A stretch of DNA of 64,000 nt from Eximiradius sp. GTDB taxonomy: Bacteria > Bacteroidota > Ignavibacteria > Kapaibacteriales > UBA2268. Below are positions 16,512 through 26,412 of the stretch, in pieces; within the stretch, counting starts at the first letter, position 1; each line of letters starts with the position of its first letter. The position numbers and the translations under genes are program-made. The notes under the pieces were generated by a model. The model saw nothing but the letters and a program-made list of their open reading frames with translations, was not told the origin of the DNA and searched no databases. The stretch lies in NCBI GenBank assembly GCA_937127445.1, contig CAKZLY010000007.1, forward strand, positions 1 through 64,000, given 5' to 3'.

Positions 16512-18797
16512 TTAGGAATTTACTTGCTTTCTTTCTTTTTTATGACGAAAAATAGCCCAGAAAAATCCAACTACTATTAAAATAGTGCCGAGCCATACAA
16601 AATTGATAAATGGTTTGATAGCGAAGTCAAAAGAGAAAAGTTGAACAGGCTCAGCAATTGGTTCACCCTCACGTTGAAAAACAAATGCAGCTTGCGAGCC
16701 ACCTTGCATCATCGCAATAAGTTCTGAAAAACCAACCATAATATTTGTTCCTGGGATTTGCCTCATTTCTGGGATGCCTTCCTTAGAATTAATGTCTATT
16801 GCTGAATATAGAGTATCGACATATTTTTCGTTTGACAAAGTAATTTCAACAGCAACGCCTAATCTTACTCTATTATCCGCCGACATTTCCATTGCGTGGT
16901 TCATATCAAACCCGAGCATCTTGATTTGCAAAGAAGTATCGAGTGGCACTTTTGACACTTCTTCGCGAGCAAGCAAAACCATTGGTAAATTTGACTTTCT
17001 TTCTGTTGATTTAGGTGAAATGTAAATATCATAACAAGGTTTTTCAATAATACCGGGCTCGAGAAAAGGCGCCATACGGTCGTTGAAATCGCTCCAATAG
17101 AAGATTGGTTTTAAAGTATGCGTGTTTTCACCTTTTTTTGCAGTAATGATAAATTCATATTTTTCTCTATCCTGAAAATGCTTTTCGATTTGGTTGATTT
17201 TTTCGAAAGTGATGTCGTAACCAAACACATTGGTTTTATCGCCGAGAGCAAGAGTAACGTGCTGAGTGGAAGAATATGCACCAGAAATCAATGCACCAAG
17301 CAGAAGGAAAGCCACCCCCATATGAGAAATATAAATCCCGAAGCTATATTTGTAAGATTTCCAGTTGCGAATAATAAATTCAAGATTAACAATAATAGTG
17401 TAAATTGCAGCAAAAGCAAGCATGAGGTAAGTAACAGAATTGATACCTAACCAAAAAACAATCAATGACAAAACAATTGAAATAGATAATGAAATAGAAA
17501 TTCTGTTTATTTTGCTTTTAAAATCCGTAGAATGCCAGTGTAAGTAAAGAGAAAAAGCACTTGTTAATAACATCAAGATAGCAAAAGGCAAATTCCATTT
17601 ATCGTAGAAAGAAATATCAACACTAGACTTTTGAGAACCCAAAATTTCTGTAAAAAGAGGCCAGTTAGTTCCAATAAAAACAATTATTGCAATAGCAAAA
17701 AGAATAATCGAACCAAGAGACAGGAAAAATTCACGCGAACTTCCTTTGAAATCAATTGCTCCGGAAATAGTAGAAATTTCATTTGAACGGATAATTAGCG
17801 AAATTATGCCAATTAAAAAGAAAACAGCAAGCGAGACCACCAATAAAGAATAAATAAACTTGCCAGGCTCACCAAAAGAATGAACAGAAATATCGCCTAA
17901 AACACCACTACGAGTTAAAAATGTTGCATAAAGCACCAAAGTGAAAGAAATAATAGCAATTACAAAATTAGTTCGGACAAGTCCTTTTGTACGTCTCTGA
18001 ACAAGCATGGTATGAACAAGAGCAACAGCGACGAGCCAAGGAAGAAGCGATGCGTTTTCGACTGGGTCCCACCCCCAAAAGCCACCCCAACCAAGCACCT
18101 CATATGCCCAAAAGCCACCGAGCATAATCCCAAGTCCAAGAATACCTGTAGCCGCAAGTGTCCAAGGTAAAGAGATCTCGATCCAGTTATGATATTCCCT
18201 CTTGATTAATCCTGCTACTGCAAATACAAAAGGGACGCTCATCATTGCATATCCAGCAAAAACAATTGGTGGATGAATAGCGTTCCAGTAATTTTGCAAA
18301 ATTGGATTTAGACCACGACCGTTTGGAGGAGTAAATCCAACGGGAGTTCCGCTATCAGTGAATGCTTCCCAAATGTACTGAAATGGGCTCTTTGAAACGA
18401 GCATCAAAGTCAGGAATACCAGTATTAGAGAATAAAACCCCATTACTAATTCCTGGTAACCGTGTTTTTTGGCATAAGGTTGCAAAAAGAAGCCAATAAG
18501 CACCATCATCAGTGCCCAAAGCAAAATAGAGCCTTCTTGCCCGGAATAGAAAGAGGTAATTAGCAATCCAAGTGGCAATTCTCTTGAAGAATAAGACCAG
18601 ATGTAGTAGTATTGAAAATTATATGAGAGAATATTCGACAAAAGAAACGCAGAAGCAAAAACAATTGCAGCAAAAAGTCCCCAATAGGAATATTCTGCAA
18701 TTTTTATATTCTTTCTGTTCTTTAAGGCTAAAAAGTAAAAAAGAGTAGATAATAAAGAGAAAATTAGAGAAACGTATATGGATAATTTACCGATCAT
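16512..18797 (-). CDS. ccmF: Cytochrome c maturation heme lyase CcmF
   Basis: A 761-residue polytopic membrane protein of System I cytochrome c biogenesis. With CcmH/CcmI it attaches heme from holo-CcmE to apocytochrome CXXCH motifs in the periplasm. The tryptophan-rich WWD motif is clear as GGFWGWDPVENASLLPWL near residues 228-245, and the preceding HPPIVFAGYAMM carries a conserved heme-ligand histidine. A later histidine lies in the GIYISHMGVAFLLLG helix, and a large periplasmic region lies near the C terminus before the last span. It follows ccmE by 35 bp on the same strand. The remaining ccm genes are not in the window. Confidence 0.94.
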   Translation of the reverse strand: MIGKLSIYVSLIFSLLSTLFYFLALKNRKNIKIAEYSYWGLFAAIVFASAFLLSNILSYNFQYYYIWSYSSRELPLGLLITSFYSGQEGSILLWALMMVLIGFFLQPYAKKHGYQELVMGFYSLILVFLTLMLVSKSPFQYIWEAFTDSGTPVGFTPPNGRGLNPILQNYWNAIHPPIVFAGYAMMSVPFVFAVAGLIKREYHNWIEISLPWTLAATGILGLGIMLGGFWAYEVLGWGGFWGWDPVENASLLPWLVAVALVHTMLVQRRTKGLVRTNFVIAIISFTLVLYATFLTRSGVLGDISVHSFGEPGKFIYSLLVVSLAVFFLIGIISLIIRSNEISTISGAIDFKGSSREFFLSLGSIILFAIAIIVFIGTNWPLFTEILGSQKSSVDISFYDKWNLPFAILMLLTSAFSLYLHWHSTDFKSKINRISISLSISIVLSLIVFWLGINSVTYLMLAFAAIYTIIVNLEFIIRNWKSYKYSFGIYISHMGVAFLLLGALISGAYSSTQHVTLALGDKTNVFGYDITFEKINQIEKHFQDREKYEFIITAKKGENTHTLKPIFYWSDFNDRMAPFLEPGIIEKPCYDIYISPKSTERKSNLPMVLLAREEVSKVPLDTSLQIKMLGFDMNHAMEMSADNRVRLGVAVEITLSNEKYVDTLYSAIDINSKEGIPEMRQIPGTNIMVGFSELIAMMQGGSQAAFVFQREGEPIAEPVQLFSFDFAIKPFINFVWLGTILIVVGFFWAIFRHKKERKQVNS

Positions 18798-18832: not shown

Positions 18833-19219
18833 TTATTTTTGCATTTTGCCTTCATATTTGCTGGGGCATTTAGTAAGAACTTCCGAAGCAATAAAAATAT
18901 CTCCTTCAAACTTCCCTTTAACAACAACCATCGGCGCAATATCGAAATTATTTGGTTTACCACCATTGTAGATAACTTCTGCTATTCCATTTTTTTCATC
19001 TTTCAAATGAAACTTAAATTGGTTTTTTTTGTTATCGTAGTTCGAGGGAAGTTCTTTAACCCAAGAACCAATAATTTGAACAGTTTTGAGTTCTTGGCGA
19101 GCAGTTGCAAAATCAGAATATTCAATTTTACTCGCATCGAATGAATAAATTGCTAAAATAATTAGGATAATCCCAGCAATAATTCCGATTAAATATTTTT
19201 TCTTCATAACTAAACTCAT
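18833..19219 (-). CDS. ccmE: Cytochrome c maturation heme chaperone CcmE, CxxxY type
   Basis: A 128-residue protein with an N-terminal membrane anchor (about residues 8-24) and an OB-fold periplasmic domain containing VQIIGSWVKELP, KFHLKDEKNGIAEVIYNGG and VVVKGKF. CcmE binds heme covalently and hands it to CcmF, the next gene. In most bacteria the heme is bound to the histidine of HxxxY; here the segment is LTKCPSKYEGK, giving Cys118-x-x-x-Tyr122. Cysteine-type CcmE is known from archaea and some bacteria such as Desulfovibrio. Two starts are possible, 19219 or 19207 (MKKKYLIG); neither has a strong ribosome site. Confidence 0.9.
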   Translation of the reverse strand: MSLVMKKKYLIGIIAGIILIILAIYSFDASKIEYSDFATARQELKTVQIIGSWVKELPSNYDNKKNQFKFHLKDEKNGIAEVIYNGGKPNNFDIAPMVVVKGKFEGDIFIASEVLTKCPSKYEGKMQK

Positions 19220-19295: not shown

Positions 19296-22200
19296 TTAAG
19301 TGTGAATAAAATGAACTGGTAAAGAAAAAGTAAATGAAGTTCCAACACCAAGTTCGGAGTGAAAGCTAATTTCTCCACCTAATTTTTCGACAGCATTTTT
19401 AACAATATATAATCCAAGTCCGGTGCCTTGAATTGATTCGGAATTTTCACCACGATAGAATTGTTCGAAAATATGTTTTTTATCATTTTCAGGAATTCCA
19501 AATCCTTGGTCTTTAACTTGAACATAAATAACATTATCTTCGACAAGCCCGACAGAAATATTGACATCTGTATTCATTGGAGAATATTGGACAGCGTTTG
19601 TAACCAAATTCATCATAATAGTTTTAAATAAGTTTTCTTCTGTAACAATCATTGGATTTTGAAGCTCCACAGATATTTGGAAATTATGGTGATATTGGTC
19701 TATTGCTTTGATTTCATCAACCACATTTTCTATTAAGTTAGCAACATTAAATGGAGAAAAATGGATTTCGCTGAGGACATCTTCTTCGCTTAGATGACCA
19801 GTAACAAGAACGTTATCGAGCAAATGAGTCATTTGGCGAGCAGCTATACGAATTCTATCTACGTGCTTAGAAAGAGTGCCTAAGTCGTTTTTAACAATTG
19901 CAAGTTCCATAAGGAAAAGCGATGTAAGCATAACGGTGAGAGGAGAACGATATTCTTCCGAAATCATTTTTAGGAAACGCGCGCGAAGTTCGCTAAATTC
20001 TTTTTCTTTAAGATAGGCAGATTGGAGCTCATCTTTTGCAGAGCGAAGCTCTTCAAGAGCATCTTCGAGTTCAGCAGTCCGCAGTCGGACGCGTTCCTCG
20101 AGTTCGACATTCATTGATTTGAGTGCTTTTTCATTTTGTTCATTAATAATTGCAGCGGCAAAGATGCGAGAAGCAATTTCGAGAGCATCAATTTCTTGTC
20201 GGATCCATTGTTGTTTAGTTTCAACGTTTCTTATTAAGAAAAATCCCCAGAATTTGTTGTATGGAGTAATTGGAATAAAAGTAAGAGAAGTAAATTGAAA
20301 ATTTGCGGGGAAATTCAAATCGTTAGTAGGTAGTTCATCATAATGAATGACAACAATTTCACCGGCAAGCAGTTTATTTTTAATGTTGCGGTTTGCTGTT
20401 AGTATAAATTTGAATTCAGGACTGGTGCATAATTGTTCGTTAGTAATGTCAATTAAAGAAGAGTAATTCAAACATTTCAAATCAAACGTATCATCGTTTT
20501 CGCTGATATGCTCGAATAAATACACTATAGACGAATCGGTGATCGAAAGAAGTCTATCGAGGCTTACTTTAATTTTATTACGCCAATTTGGTTCAATAAG
20601 GAATTGTTCGGCTGCGTGACTTATGGTTTCTAATATTTCGTCTTTTCTTGAAATAATTTTATGCAGACGTTTTGTTGTGGTTAAATCATCAACAATTCCA
20701 ATAAAATAATGAAACTCACAAGGTTCATTAATTGATACTTCGCTCAGTAAAATATTACGAATTTCACCATTTTTTCTACGGACAGTTAGCTCAAAACTTG
20801 TTGGGAGTTTTTTTCCTTCAAGCGATTCAAGAGCACGTTTGCGAATGATTGAGCGGGAGTTTTCCTCGATTAAATTAAAGTAGTCGAATGCAGGAGATAA
20901 AAGTTCGTCTTTTGTGTATCCAGAGAACTCACAAAATTTTGGATTGATATAAAGGAATTTATGGTCCTTCATAATAAACATAGGATCGGTAGCATTTTCC
21001 AGCAGAGAATAATATTTTTTTTCACTTTCAATTAGTTTGGTCTGAATTACATGTCTATTCAATGCAAGTGATAAAACATTAAGAATCCTTAAAAGGATTT
21101 TAATATCTCCCTTGTTAAACTTTGAATCTTTGTTGGCGAGGAAAATATATCCAAAATTTTTTCCTTCAATATCTATGGGTGCATAAAGGTAATTTTCTAT
21201 CGCTAAGATATTGTCGTTTAATTTGATTTGAACGGGTTTATTGAAATTTTCATAGAGATAATTATCTTTTGCAAATTGCTCTCTAATAAAATTATCTAAT
21301 ATTGAAATTGCATTATTATCAAATTCAAAAATAGAGCTATGAATAATATTAATGTGTTCACCGATATTGTTTATTGTAAGGAAACTAAAATGATTAGCGA
21401 ATAAATTAGTAAAAGAGTAAAGCATCAGTTGACAAATTTTATGAAGTTCAGTTTCGTTGATAACATAATTTGAAATTGTAGCGACATTAACATTTATATT
21501 CACTTCACTTTGGAGCTGAATTTCTTTGCTAACTCTATCAATTGCAGATACTAATATATTAGAAAAGGTTCTTAGTAAAGCTGAATCCTCATTTCGCCAA
21601 GAGTTGTCGAGCATAGCATTAAAAATTGCAATGCCTCCGTACAAATCATTATCATAGATTACAGGAACGATGAAAATGTTTGATAATCCCAGTAATTTCA
21701 TATACTTCCGCACTTCAGGAAAAGTATTTTCAATTTCAATTAAAAAATTATCTGAAACATAGTTACTCTTTTTAAAGAATGAATAAATCCACTGATGAAT
21801 ATTGTCGATTCTTTCTTTGAATTTATTGACATTTACTTGCAATGTGTTAGCGAAAAATGCATATTCGGGGGTGACAATCCCATCGCTAACCATGTAAAGA
21901 ACAATTCCATCAGCGTTAGCAAAGTAACAGAATCTTTTGAGTGCATTTAGAGTCTTGTCTTCAAGTTCATAAGTTTCTAAACTTGTGAAATCTTGGGCTA
22001 TTTCGCTGAGAAGCTTTTCGAAATTTTTTCTATATTCAAGGTTTAATCGAAGAAGTTTATTGCTCTTGTCTTCTTTGATAATAATGCCAATATATTGGTT
22101 CTCATCTTCAATAACAGGATAATAAATGACATAAATATTCTTCGTTTTGTTATCTCCAAAGAATAAAGTATATTCAGATGTTGAGGGTTTTTCGTTTGTG

Positions 22201-22460
22201 TAAGCAATGTTATATAAGTTTTTATATAGGCTTTCTATAAAGTTTTCGTTCAGATAATCCTTGCTACTTTGATTAACATATTTGACAAAAAGTTCATTGA
22301 TTTTTAAGCTTTTAATAGTATCAATAGGTATTTCAAAGATATTTTCAGCAAAATTATTGCAGTAGATAATATTGCACTCTTTGTCAACAATCAGAAGTGC
22401 TTCTTTAGATAGTTCGAAGAGCTGTTCGAATATACTAATTGATATAGAATTGTTATTCAT
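19296..22460 (-). CDS. Multi-sensor histidine-kinase-like protein lacking the H-box histidine
   Basis: A 1054-residue soluble sensor with no membrane span. Domains in order are: PAS (about 8-130), GAF-like (about 150-310), a second GAF-like region (about 330-480), PAS (about 485-610, with LYINPKFCEFSGYTKDEL), a third GAF-like region (about 620-790), a coiled coil, HisKA (about 825-895) and HATPase_c (about 930-1050). The ATPase boxes look intact: N box MNLVTNAVQYSP, G1 VKDQGFGIPE, F EQFYRG, G2 GTGLGLYIVK. In the dimerisation helix the canonical SHE-x-R-x-P reads S-E-E-Y-R-S-P, placing Glu835 (19956-19958) where the phospho-acceptor histidine should be. Ordinary His-to-Asp phosphotransfer is therefore not expected. 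It lies upstream of ccmE in the same direction, 76 bp away; no response regulator is adjacent. Confidence 0.88.
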   Translation of the reverse strand: MNNNSISISIFEQLFELSKEALLIVDKECNIIYCNNFAENIFEIPIDTIKSLKINELFVKYVNQSSKDYLNENFIESLYKNLYNIAYTNEKPSTSEYTLFFGDNKTKNIYVIYYPVIEDENQYIGIIIKEDKSNKLLRLNLEYRKNFEKLLSEIAQDFTSLETYELEDKTLNALKRFCYFANADGIVLYMVSDGIVTPEYAFFANTLQVNVNKFKERIDNIHQWIYSFFKKSNYVSDNFLIEIENTFPEVRKYMKLLGLSNIFIVPVIYDNDLYGGIAIFNAMLDNSWRNEDSALLRTFSNILVSAIDRVSKEIQLQSEVNINVNVATISNYVINETELHKICQLMLYSFTNLFANHFSFLTINNIGEHINIIHSSIFEFDNNAISILDNFIREQFAKDNYLYENFNKPVQIKLNDNILAIENYLYAPIDIEGKNFGYIFLANKDSKFNKGDIKILLRILNVLSLALNRHVIQTKLIESEKKYYSLLENATDPMFIMKDHKFLYINPKFCEFSGYTKDELLSPAFDYFNLIEENSRSIIRKRALESLEGKKLPTSFELTVRRKNGEIRNILLSEVSINEPCEFHYFIGIVDDLTTTKRLHKIISRKDEILETISHAAEQFLIEPNWRNKIKVSLDRLLSITDSSIVYLFEHISENDDTFDLKCLNYSSLIDITNEQLCTSPEFKFILTANRNIKNKLLAGEIVVIHYDELPTNDLNFPANFQFTSLTFIPITPYNKFWGFFLIRNVETKQQWIRQEIDALEIASRIFAAAIINEQNEKALKSMNVELEERVRLRTAELEDALEELRSAKDELQSAYLKEKEFSELRARFLKMISEEYRSPLTVMLTSLFLMELAIVKNDLGTLSKHVDRIRIAARQMTHLLDNVLVTGHLSEEDVLSEIHFSPFNVANLIENVVDEIKAIDQYHHNFQISVELQNPMIVTEENLFKTIMMNLVTNAVQYSPMNTDVNISVGLVEDNVIYVQVKDQGFGIPENDKKHIFEQFYRGENSESIQGTGLGLYIVKNAVEKLGGEISFHSELGVGTSFTFSLPVHFIHT

Positions 22461-22525: not shown

Positions 22526-24139
22526 TTATTTTTTTTGTGCGTTAATTCGTAACCAAGCATCGTAAAAAGGTAAAGATTCTTTCCATTTTGGTTGATTAGA
22601 ACTATTGGCGAAGGCAAACACAATATCGAATAGTAAATTAGCGTGTTGCAATGCAGCATCATAATTAACTGAAAACTTAAAGTCGTCGTTGGGTGTATGG
22701 TAAATATGATGGGCATAATGATAGTATTTTTCGGAAGCTTCCTCTGAAGTATAATTTTCTAAATCAAGCCCATCCATAACAAGCAAAGCAGGTACGCCAT
22801 TTCTTGCAAAAGAATAATTATCTGAATAAACAAAGGAATTATCCAATGCAAAGGAAGGCAGTTCCGATAAATATAGATTATTTGTTTTTAAGATACTATC
22901 TAAAACATTTAAACTATCTAAAAACTCTGCACCAATTGCAACCACTGATTTAAATTTATCCAAAAAAGCAATTCCGTCGATATTAATATTCAGAATAGTT
23001 TTGTAGAGCGGGCGTGCGGGATAATCACAATAATAGGCTGAACCGAGCAAGCCTTGTTCTTCTGCCGTTGTGAAAAGGAAAATAATAGAACGTTTGGGTT
23101 TGCGATTGGCTCCCATAATTGTGCGAGCAATTTCAAGTGTGGCAGCACATCCGAGAGCATTATCGGTAAGCCCATTGTAAATACTGTCGTTGCCAAAAGG
23201 GATACCAATACCAAGATGGTCATAATGGGCAGAAACTAAGACGTAGCTGTCGCGTAATTTTTCATCAGAGCCTTGAATAAGGCCAACAACATTAACAGCG
23301 AGGAAATCGTGACGTTCAACTTGAGGTTTGAATTCAAAAAAAGTGTTTAGCGGGAAACTTGATAATTTATTATTATTAGCAAGCTCCAAAATCTGATTTA
23401 GAGAGTAACCAGATTGGGCAAAGATAAAATCAGAAGCGATTGGGTTAAGAACAATACACAAATTTTTATTTAAATTGTAAGCGAGTGAGAAATCATCGAA
23501 TTGGTAATTAAGTTTCATTTTATCCCAATGATTCTGATTTGAAATGCTTTTGGTTGAGACGATTATTAATGCAGCAGCACCACGAGAGAGAGCAATGATT
23601 TGTTTAGTTTCGAAGCTTGAATAAGTAGTAGGTCGTTCGCCTGCAAAAAAATCGGGTGAAGAAGAATGTGGTTCGCCATCCAAAACTACAATAACTTTTC
23701 CACGAACATCAATATTTAAGTAATCGTTGTAATCAAATTCGGGAGCAACGATGCCAAATCCTGCAAATACCATTTCTGTGCGGCGAGAAAGAAAAATCTG
23801 GTGAGAAATTTTGTAAACTAAATAGTCATCGTTTAGAGAGTACTCGCGAAAATTGTTTTCGGAATAAATAGTTAGTTTTGTTTCAGGGAGTAGTTTAGTG
23901 GAGTGCATAGGAATATATTGATAGAAAGTGCCTTCGTTGCCAAGAGGTTTCACGCCGTATTTATGTAATTCTGAGGCTAAATATTTAGCAGCAATTTCAC
24001 TACCGAACGAACCCGTTAGTCGACCTGCCAAAAAATCACTTGCAAGAAAATTAACGTGACTGATAATCTGATTTTTATTAATCTCTGCAATCAGGCAAGA
24101 AGCAAACAGCAAGGTTATTATCTTTAGATATACTCTCAT
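22526..24139 (-). CDS. Secreted M28-family zinc aminopeptidase
   Basis: A 537-residue exported metallopeptidase with an N-terminal signal peptide (cleavage near LIAEI) and a PA-like insert in the N-terminal half. The M28 dizinc site follows: SAHYDHLG (His and the acid two residues on), LTDNALG (bridging Asp), TTAEEQGLLG (general base Glu and zinc Glu), NINIDGI (Asp) and HTPNDD (last His). It should release N-terminal amino acids from peptides outside the cytoplasm. I start at ATG 24139; the frame extends three codons further to a TTG, which would put nothing conserved in front. It stands alone, divergent from flhA. Confidence 0.9.
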   Translation of the reverse strand: MRVYLKIITLLFASCLIAEINKNQIISHVNFLASDFLAGRLTGSFGSEIAAKYLASELHKYGVKPLGNEGTFYQYIPMHSTKLLPETKLTIYSENNFREYSLNDDYLVYKISHQIFLSRRTEMVFAGFGIVAPEFDYNDYLNIDVRGKVIVVLDGEPHSSSPDFFAGERPTTYSSFETKQIIALSRGAAALIIVSTKSISNQNHWDKMKLNYQFDDFSLAYNLNKNLCIVLNPIASDFIFAQSGYSLNQILELANNNKLSSFPLNTFFEFKPQVERHDFLAVNVVGLIQGSDEKLRDSYVLVSAHYDHLGIGIPFGNDSIYNGLTDNALGCAATLEIARTIMGANRKPKRSIIFLFTTAEEQGLLGSAYYCDYPARPLYKTILNINIDGIAFLDKFKSVVAIGAEFLDSLNVLDSILKTNNLYLSELPSFALDNSFVYSDNYSFARNGVPALLVMDGLDLENYTSEEASEKYYHYAHHIYHTPNDDFKFSVNYDAALQHANLLFDIVFAFANSSNQPKWKESLPFYDAWLRINAQKK

Positions 24140-24288
24140 AAAAAACAATTTACTTAATAATGAAAAATAAAAAAAATTTGAATGAAAAAAATTTATTGTT
24201 CAATAAATGGCAAGGAAATTGACGATAATCAGAATGATATAATAGAAATAGCATAAATACTATGTTTTTTGAATGATGAAGAAAAAAA

Positions 24289-26412
24289 ATGGCTAAAAAT
24301 ACACAAATAGATGTATTAAATTCACCTGCTATGAGCAAAATTCGCAATAATGTACTTCCGCAATTGAGCAGGAACAGGGATTTATTATTAGCGATGGGCG
24401 TTTTGCTCATATTGGGGTTATTAATTATACCATTGCCACCAAAACTATTAGATATATTTTTAGCGACAAATATTACTTTGTCTGTGTTAATCTTGATGAT
24501 TGCGATTTACATAAGAACGCCGCTGGAATTTTCTTCGTTTCCAGCAGTGTTGCTTATGACAACATTGTTTCGATTAGGATTGAATGTGGCAACTACGCGT
24601 TTAATTTTAGGCGAGGCTTCGGCAGGGGATATTATTCAAGCATTTGGATCATTTGTAATCAAGGGAAATTATGTAGTTGGCGTTATAATATTTCTTATCT
24701 TACTTGTAATCAATTTTATTGTAGTAATCAAGGGTTCTACACGTATTGCAGAAGTAAGTGCTCGTTTTACTTTGGATGCATTACCCGGCAAGCAGATGAG
24801 TATTGATGCAGATTTGAATGCAGGATATATAGATGAGGCAACTGCAAAAAAACGACGCGAAGACCTAACTCGCGAGGCAGACTTCTTTGGTGCAATGGAC
24901 GGTGCTGCAAAGTTTATCAAAGGAGATGCGATAGCAGGACTTGTAATAACGGGAGTTAATATTCTTGGAGGACTTGCCGTAGGGATGTTGCAATTCGATA
25001 TGGATTTTGCAACTGCTGCTTCTACATATACAATTTTGACAATTGGTGATGGACTTGTAGCACAGATACCTTCGCTTCTTATTTCTGTTTCGGGTGGCTT
25101 GGTTGTTACACGTTCGAGCGGCTCAGATTACCTGGATACGGAGCTATCGTTTCAAATAGGTAGTCGTCCTAAACCTCTCGCGATTACTTCAATAGTATTA
25201 TTAGTAATGGGAACCATACCAGGTTTCCCATTTATCCCATTTTTTATTCTCTCGGTTATAACCGGAGCATTTGCTTATTACCGGCACAAACAAATGAGAC
25301 AAGAATCAGAAAAGAAACTGAAAGAAGAAATTGAAAAAGCAGAAGAAATTAGTGCCCCGCCTGAACAGCCGGTAGAGGAACTACTTAAAATAGATCCGGT
25401 AGAAATAGAATTAGGCTATGCCTTGATACAATTAGTTGACGAAACACAGGGAGGCGATGTATTCAAAAGAATAACAAATGTTCGGCGTCAATTAGCTCAG
25501 GAACTCGGTATAATTCTACCACCAGTAAGAGTAAGAGATAATTTGCAACTTGAACCAGAAGAATACGTTGTAAAAATTCGCAATAACGAGATTGCAAGAA
25601 ACAAGTTGTATCCTAATATGTTGCTTGCAATGAATCCTGGAAATGCCGAGGGCACTCTTGACGGAATTAATGTAACAGAACCGGTATTCGGATTGCCAGC
25701 TGTTTGGATAAATCAAAACTTACGAGAAAATGCAGAAGTAATGGGCTATACAGTTGTCGAAGCAGCTACTGTACTAACAACACATTTGACAGAATTGCTG
25801 CGGCGAAATGCCGATAAACTTCTAACGCGTCAAGAGGTGAAGCGATTAATTGACAACTTGAAAGACGATTATCCCGCACTTTTAGAAGAAATACAACAGG
25901 AACAATTACCACTTGTACTTGTTCAGAAAGTGTTACAAAATCTACTTTCTGAGGGAATACCAATTAGAGATTTGCCTATAGTTCTGGAATCAATTCTTGA
26001 ATATTCAAAAGTAACAAAAAATACTGATGTTTTGACAGAATACGTACGTCATAATTTATCTGAAACCATAAAAAAATTATATCAAGATAGATTCGGAGTA
26101 ATTCACGCAATTGCATTAGATCCGCAAATCGAAGAGAAAATCACGAATGCACTTCAAATGCATGGGACAACTGCAATAGCACCATCGATGGGATTACCAC
26201 CCGATTTTATCGAAGCAATGAAAAATAGTTTAAATGAGGCAATCGAGGAAATTTCTCTTGCGGGATATTTGCCGTTAATAATTTGTTCTGCACAAATACG
26301 TCCTTATCTTTATAGAATGATTCACAATACTTATCCACTTGTAAGTGTTGTCAGTTTCACCGAGCTTCCTGCAGATACTGACATAGAAATACACGGGCAA
26401 GTGCGTGTATAA
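24289..26412 (+). CDS. flhA: Flagellar export gate protein FlhA
   Basis: A 707-residue integral membrane component of the flagellar type III export gate. The N-terminal half has about eight spans and the FHIPEP-family signature FRLGLNVATTRLIL near residue 95. The cytoplasmic loop GKQMSIDADLNAGYIDE is strongly conserved and needed for proton-driven export. The C-terminal cytoplasmic domain begins near residue 340 and includes GYTVVEAATVLTTHL. I favour FlhA over a virulence-type homologue because the loop and length match the flagellar branch. No other flagellar gene is in the window; the neighbours are an M28 peptidase (divergent) and fbp, which starts 12 bp downstream in the same direction. 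Confidence 0.93.
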   Translation: MAKNTQIDVLNSPAMSKIRNNVLPQLSRNRDLLLAMGVLLILGLLIIPLPPKLLDIFLATNITLSVLILMIAIYIRTPLEFSSFPAVLLMTTLFRLGLNVATTRLILGEASAGDIIQAFGSFVIKGNYVVGVIIFLILLVINFIVVIKGSTRIAEVSARFTLDALPGKQMSIDADLNAGYIDEATAKKRREDLTREADFFGAMDGAAKFIKGDAIAGLVITGVNILGGLAVGMLQFDMDFATAASTYTILTIGDGLVAQIPSLLISVSGGLVVTRSSGSDYLDTELSFQIGSRPKPLAITSIVLLVMGTIPGFPFIPFFILSVITGAFAYYRHKQMRQESEKKLKEEIEKAEEISAPPEQPVEELLKIDPVEIELGYALIQLVDETQGGDVFKRITNVRRQLAQELGIILPPVRVRDNLQLEPEEYVVKIRNNEIARNKLYPNMLLAMNPGNAEGTLDGINVTEPVFGLPAVWINQNLRENAEVMGYTVVEAATVLTTHLTELLRRNADKLLTRQEVKRLIDNLKDDYPALLEEIQQEQLPLVLVQKVLQNLLSEGIPIRDLPIVLESILEYSKVTKNTDVLTEYVRHNLSETIKKLYQDRFGVIHAIALDPQIEEKITNALQMHGTTAIAPSMGLPPDFIEAMKNSLNEAIEEISLAGYLPLIICSAQIRPYLYRMIHNTYPLVSVVSFTELPADTDIEIHGQVRV

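Follow-up and report, generated by a model that had tools for sequence, protein, structure and literature searches.

A candidate pseudo-histidine kinase with glutamate at the phospho-acceptor position, conserved throughout a genus of Kapabacteria-type bacteria

To our knowledge, few bacterial pseudo-histidine kinases are understood. Among the systems considered here, RetS keeps a His, and the plant receptor ETR2 has a Glu at the acceptor-His position. Histidine-kinase-like proteins that lack the acceptor are already known from both bacteria and plants (PMC4211667, PMC7402358). DivL of Caulobacter, with Tyr in place of His, acts neither as a kinase nor as a phosphatase, and its DHp domain mediates the binding of DivK~P (PMC4211667). 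The plant subfamily II ethylene receptors ETR2, ERS2 and EIN4 share with the protein studied here a histidine-kinase-like domain and are described as lacking the conserved His (PMC7402358); however, they are plant membrane receptors with reported Ser/Thr kinase activity, and they are likened here by description. In RetS/GacS and ChrS/HrrS one kinase modulates another by direct contact, as proposed below for the Glu kinase (PMC12189002, PMC9491836), but the ChrS pseudokinase arose through a laboratory frameshift in the CA domain and not through loss of the His (PMC9491836).

In this study, we analysed a gene at 19296..22460 on the minus strand of a 64,000-nucleotide stretch of DNA (the window), which encodes a protein of 1054 aa. 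The first-pass annotation had described a frame open across 1054 codons and a soluble product, and both descriptions hold: over the whole protein, hydrophobicity (KD) never exceeded the threshold of 1.5 in any 19-residue window, and no membrane segment was suggested. By Pfam, a multi-PAS/GAF sensor part is followed by HisKA and HATPase_c; the HATPase_c match has an E value of 2.7e-26, while the HisKA match, with 25.3 bits, lies just under the cut-off of 26.9. The sensor part, on the minus strand like all features of the gene, begins with a PAS-like domain (22116..22448; weak PAS matches and a low-confidence model), followed by a first GAF-like domain (21516..22058; weak Pfam match and predicted secondary structure only), a second one (21051..21455; a GAF_2 match at residues 418-467, under the cut-off), a second PAS domain (residues 482-592, 20685..21017; E 3.7e-14) and a third GAF domain (residues 602-771, 20148..20657; match at 666-771). 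The bounds of the PAS-like and the three GAF domains are approximate, since the full-length AlphaFold model (mean pLDDT 53) is too poor for the sensor domains. A helical linker (19995..20135), an unbroken helix in the structure model, leads into helix 1 of the HisKA-like DHp domain (residues 823-895, 19776..19994), and the CA (HATPase_c) domain with its N, G1, F and G2 motifs (19299..19775) forms the C-terminal part. The model of the catalytic half (mean pLDDT 75.7) shows a standard DHp helical pair and a CA domain, and it matches HK853 and DivL (4q20; TM 0.85 by target length), which are among the nearest solved folds.

The H-box reads RFLKMISEEYRSPLT, and Glu835 (19956..19958) occupies the place of the phospho-acceptor His, with residue and coordinates as first annotated. 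Misalignment had been considered unlikely, and rightly so: MISEEYRSPL aligns without gaps to NISHELRTPL of HK853 (2c2a), and in this PDB sequence search alignment Glu835 falls on His260. The acceptor His was present in 59/59 compared homologous catalytic halves, a set made up of halves without the Glu motif, while all four orthologues of the genus have Glu where an active kinase carries His in its H-box. Judged from the PDB alignment and the model, the DHp/CA fold is retained and the acceptor replaced, as expected of a pseudo-histidine kinase. An exact fit of the neighbouring residues to the canonical H-box, as stated earlier, was too strong a claim. Glu836 (19953..19955), acidic like the residue that follows the acceptor in 59/59 homologues (E or D), is kept and, mapped by motif, would correspond to Glu249 of CpxA, the general base (PMC3904827). 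But Ser839 stands where Thr is usual, a replacement seen in only 3/59 homologues at this HK853-type Thr position, and Lys831 (19968..19970), one helical turn before Glu835, is unique to the clade, being found in none of the 59 His-bearing homologues, which mostly have S, A or T there. Four residues ahead of Glu835 on one helix, Lys831 could pair with it, as far as the geometry suggests.

In HK853, both His260 and Thr264 have been proposed to position the catalytic water (PMC5727384). For this reason the main rival explanation is a dedicated phosphatase, in which Glu835 would orient or activate water, Ser839 would stand in for the Thr, and the only reaction would be dephosphorylation of a response regulator. 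A carboxylate together with the Ser hydroxyl could hold such a water, and the CA motifs are largely kept; against this, the H260A exchange diminishes the phosphatase activity of HK853 (PMC5727384), Ser is rare at the Thr position, and Lys831 may engage Glu835. On balance, we regard a Glu-assisted phosphatase as unlikely, if worth serious consideration. That Glu835 is catalytic in any form, either in a Glu-based response-regulator phosphatase or in a kinase forming a glutamyl acyl-phosphate, appears doubtful, and we know of no description of such chemistry for HisKA proteins.

An orthologue was found in all four species of the genus examined (separately assembled Ignavibacteria/Kapabacteria-type MAGs), the other three being 84-87% identical. 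The codons of Glu835 are GAA, GAG, GAA and GAA, and Glu in four separate assemblies with synonymous codon variation is neither chance nor error. The first-pass annotation had proposed to look for Glu in close relatives, and its presence in 4/4 orthologues favours a true pseudokinase; a Glu private to this genome is not what the genus shows, and beyond the genus all homologues examined have His. By NG86, a rough simple counting method applied here to four species with dS near saturation, the DHp domain has the lowest dN/dS of the protein (0.011; mean dN 0.017, dS 1.6; 93% invariant columns), compared with 0.039 for CA and 0.05-0.13 for the sensor domains. Two groups of His-bearing paralogues from the genus give DHp values of 0.024 and 0.029, so that selection on the DHp domain of the Glu kinase is not relaxed, this domain being at least as constrained as theirs. 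With a DHp dN/dS of 0.011, the gene is maintained by selection and not decaying. Gene decay, sequencing error and misalignment were thus ruled out by Glu in four assemblies, strong purifying selection and the gapless HK853 alignment; moreover, the frames are open over the full length wherever the contig is complete. The acceptor His has been lost, and strong purifying selection keeps the Glu that was fixed instead, along with Lys831 and, in the N-box, Gln958. Selection on both DHp and CA argues for the importance of the fold and its surfaces; as DHp domains are conserved in all cases, conservation alone does not reveal which surface is used.

In a maximum-likelihood tree, the four Glu kinases group as a single clade (100/99) whose long stem arises from within the His kinases of their own family, with L005 as sister of the clade at moderate support. 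In this tree, computed without DivL, such nesting would speak against descent from the alphaproteobacterial DivL. This topology points to a single loss of the His, and the simplest reading of the sequences is one event at the base of the genus; with only four closely related species, the case counts as one evolutionary event. By sequence and tree, the same subfamily includes the His-bearing SHEYRTPL kinases L005-L011 and the paralogues L039, L047, L053 and L056. Unlike the Glu kinase, the SHEYRTPL kinases have His at the acceptor position without exception, and the N-box Lys is present in nearly all of them. A search of 391 genomes of the class with the pattern [DE]-E-[YF]-R-x-P-L gave 47 matches, and read in frame the only kinases among them were the genes of this genus; a second pattern gave 12 matches in 395 genomes of the phylum, with the Glu835 gene as the sole kinase. 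Both were strict degenerate DNA patterns, which His-less kinases with other motifs would escape. In the same genome, 50 of the 52 HATPase loci were scanned for DHp, and all recognisable H-boxes have His except that of the Glu835 gene and one with Arg.

A second His-less kinase of the genus was observed in three species (L203 at G000:C27:92441-94200, L229 and L230; 448-454 aa), with Arg in the H-box (VAREMDSPI) and a HATPase_c domain without a normal G2 box. The 52 HATPase_c matches in the 2.45 Mb genome G000 represent many signalling ATPases for its size.

The ATP-binding boxes had been called intact, which is true for most of their residues: both N-box Asn (Asn951, Asn955), the G1 residues Asp984, Gly986 and Gly988, the F-box, and Gly1012, Gly1014 and Gly1016 of G2 are present. 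The exceptions are the N-box Lys and Asp941. Gln958 (19587..19589) replaces the Lys, which is present in 58/59 homologues, in 4/4 orthologues, and the HATPase_c domain otherwise has the N, G1, F and G2 boxes of an active kinase; at position 941 Glu is fixed in the clade (Asp in 56/59 homologues). Position 826, where Arg is fixed in the clade, is Lys in 53/59 homologues. By motif, Gln958 would correspond to Arg363, through which CpxA contacts the phosphates of ATP (PMC3904827). The replacement of both the acceptor His and the N-box Lys argues against autophosphorylation. Of the roles first suggested, an allosteric or partner function fits these data, while use of another acceptor gains no support, because the N-box Lys that helps to hold the ATP phosphates is replaced. 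An active kinase of this kind would form an acyl phosphate on Glu835, a residue for which we know of no precedent as phospho-acceptor, or modify another His or Ser/Thr. The largely kept ATP motifs, His866 and His879, which all four orthologues share in their DHp domain, and the Ser/Thr kinase activity in vitro of subfamily II ethylene receptors, described as His-less (PMC7402358, PMC3485614), speak for it, but both His residues lie outside the H-box and the N-box Lys is lost; we consider it very unlikely.

The kept G1, F and G2 motifs and N-box Asn residues would also suit a half-active partner that, within a heterodimer, uses bound ATP to phosphorylate the DHp His of a paralogue that has kept this residue. 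Heterodimers are known from ChrS/HrrS (PMC9491836) and RetS/GacS (PMC12189002), and four related His kinases are encoded in the same genome. With the N-box Lys replaced in 4/4 species and the nearest paralogues only about 36-39% identical, none of them close, such trans-phosphorylation seems improbable.

On the minus strand, the kinase gene is followed downstream by ccmE (18833..19219; PF03100) and ccmF (16512..18797; PF16327 and PF01578) and preceded upstream by a gene for an M28-family peptidase (22526..24148; PF04389). The position just upstream of ccmE and ccmF noted in the first pass was confirmed, the synteny with ccmE being conserved in the four species and in this genus only. The peptidase gene adjoins the kinase gene in G000, G002 and G003; in G001 the kinase gene is split over two contigs, and the peptidase gene lies by its 5′ end across the contig break. 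Being kept within the genus in this order, on one strand and with short gaps, the peptidase, kinase, ccmE and ccmF genes probably form one transcription unit; a promoter and terminator scan gave nothing above chance. The peptidase-kinase-ccmE order was not found in other genera, where other genes lie upstream of ccmE wherever enough sequence is available, and a His-bearing positional orthologue there was rejected on this ground. No response regulator is encoded among the immediate neighbours of the kinase gene, which counts against the docking reading favoured below; a regular-expression search around 39 loci yielded just two leads (L022 and L024), so that by this simple pattern the relatives mostly lack an adjoining response regulator.

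Two further observations concern the neighbouring genes. CcmE ends C-terminally in LTKCPSKYEGKMQK, in which CxxxY replaces the HxxxY motif of the classical protein, a known variant. A gene of the FHIPEP family (FlhA-type export apparatus) is located beside the kinase unit at 24289-26412.

Taken together, we favour, with a probability of roughly 60%, the reading that the protein is a pseudo-histidine kinase that binds nucleotide but is catalytically dead, and acts as a non-catalytic docking or allosteric regulator. The closest counterpart is DivL, which likewise has a PAS-containing sensor part, a HisKA/HATPase_c fold and a replaced acceptor His, and whose structure 4q20 matches by sequence and fold. 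It differs in having Tyr550 at the acceptor position, where the tyrosine typical of the DivL family is Glu in 4/4 orthologues, and in belonging to a different lineage; the N-box Lys-to-Gln exchange and Lys831 are features of the Glu clade set against DivL, and the analysis gave no evidence of a DivK/CckA-like circuit. As a pseudo-histidine kinase, the protein would still dimerise and, judging from its motifs, bind nucleotide, without autophosphorylation. Signals received by the PAS and GAF domains would rearrange DHp and CA relative to each other, and the DHp surface, which is preserved, may dock either a response regulator or a partner kinase that carries His. Docking would then alter the phosphorylation of the partner, either by sequestering it or through allostery, in the manner of DivL and RetS. 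Because the gene lies in the probable peptidase-kinase-ccmE-ccmF unit, the signal could be redox- or cytochrome-related.

In the literature searched, we found no description of an H-to-E histidine kinase or of a genus-wide Glu version. What is new here is such a lineage-specific, genus-wide version with coordinated changes. With the Glu version fixed throughout the genus, both halves of its active site altered, and family members that still carry His, the steps from a working kinase to what would be a non-catalytic regulator become traceable and testable.
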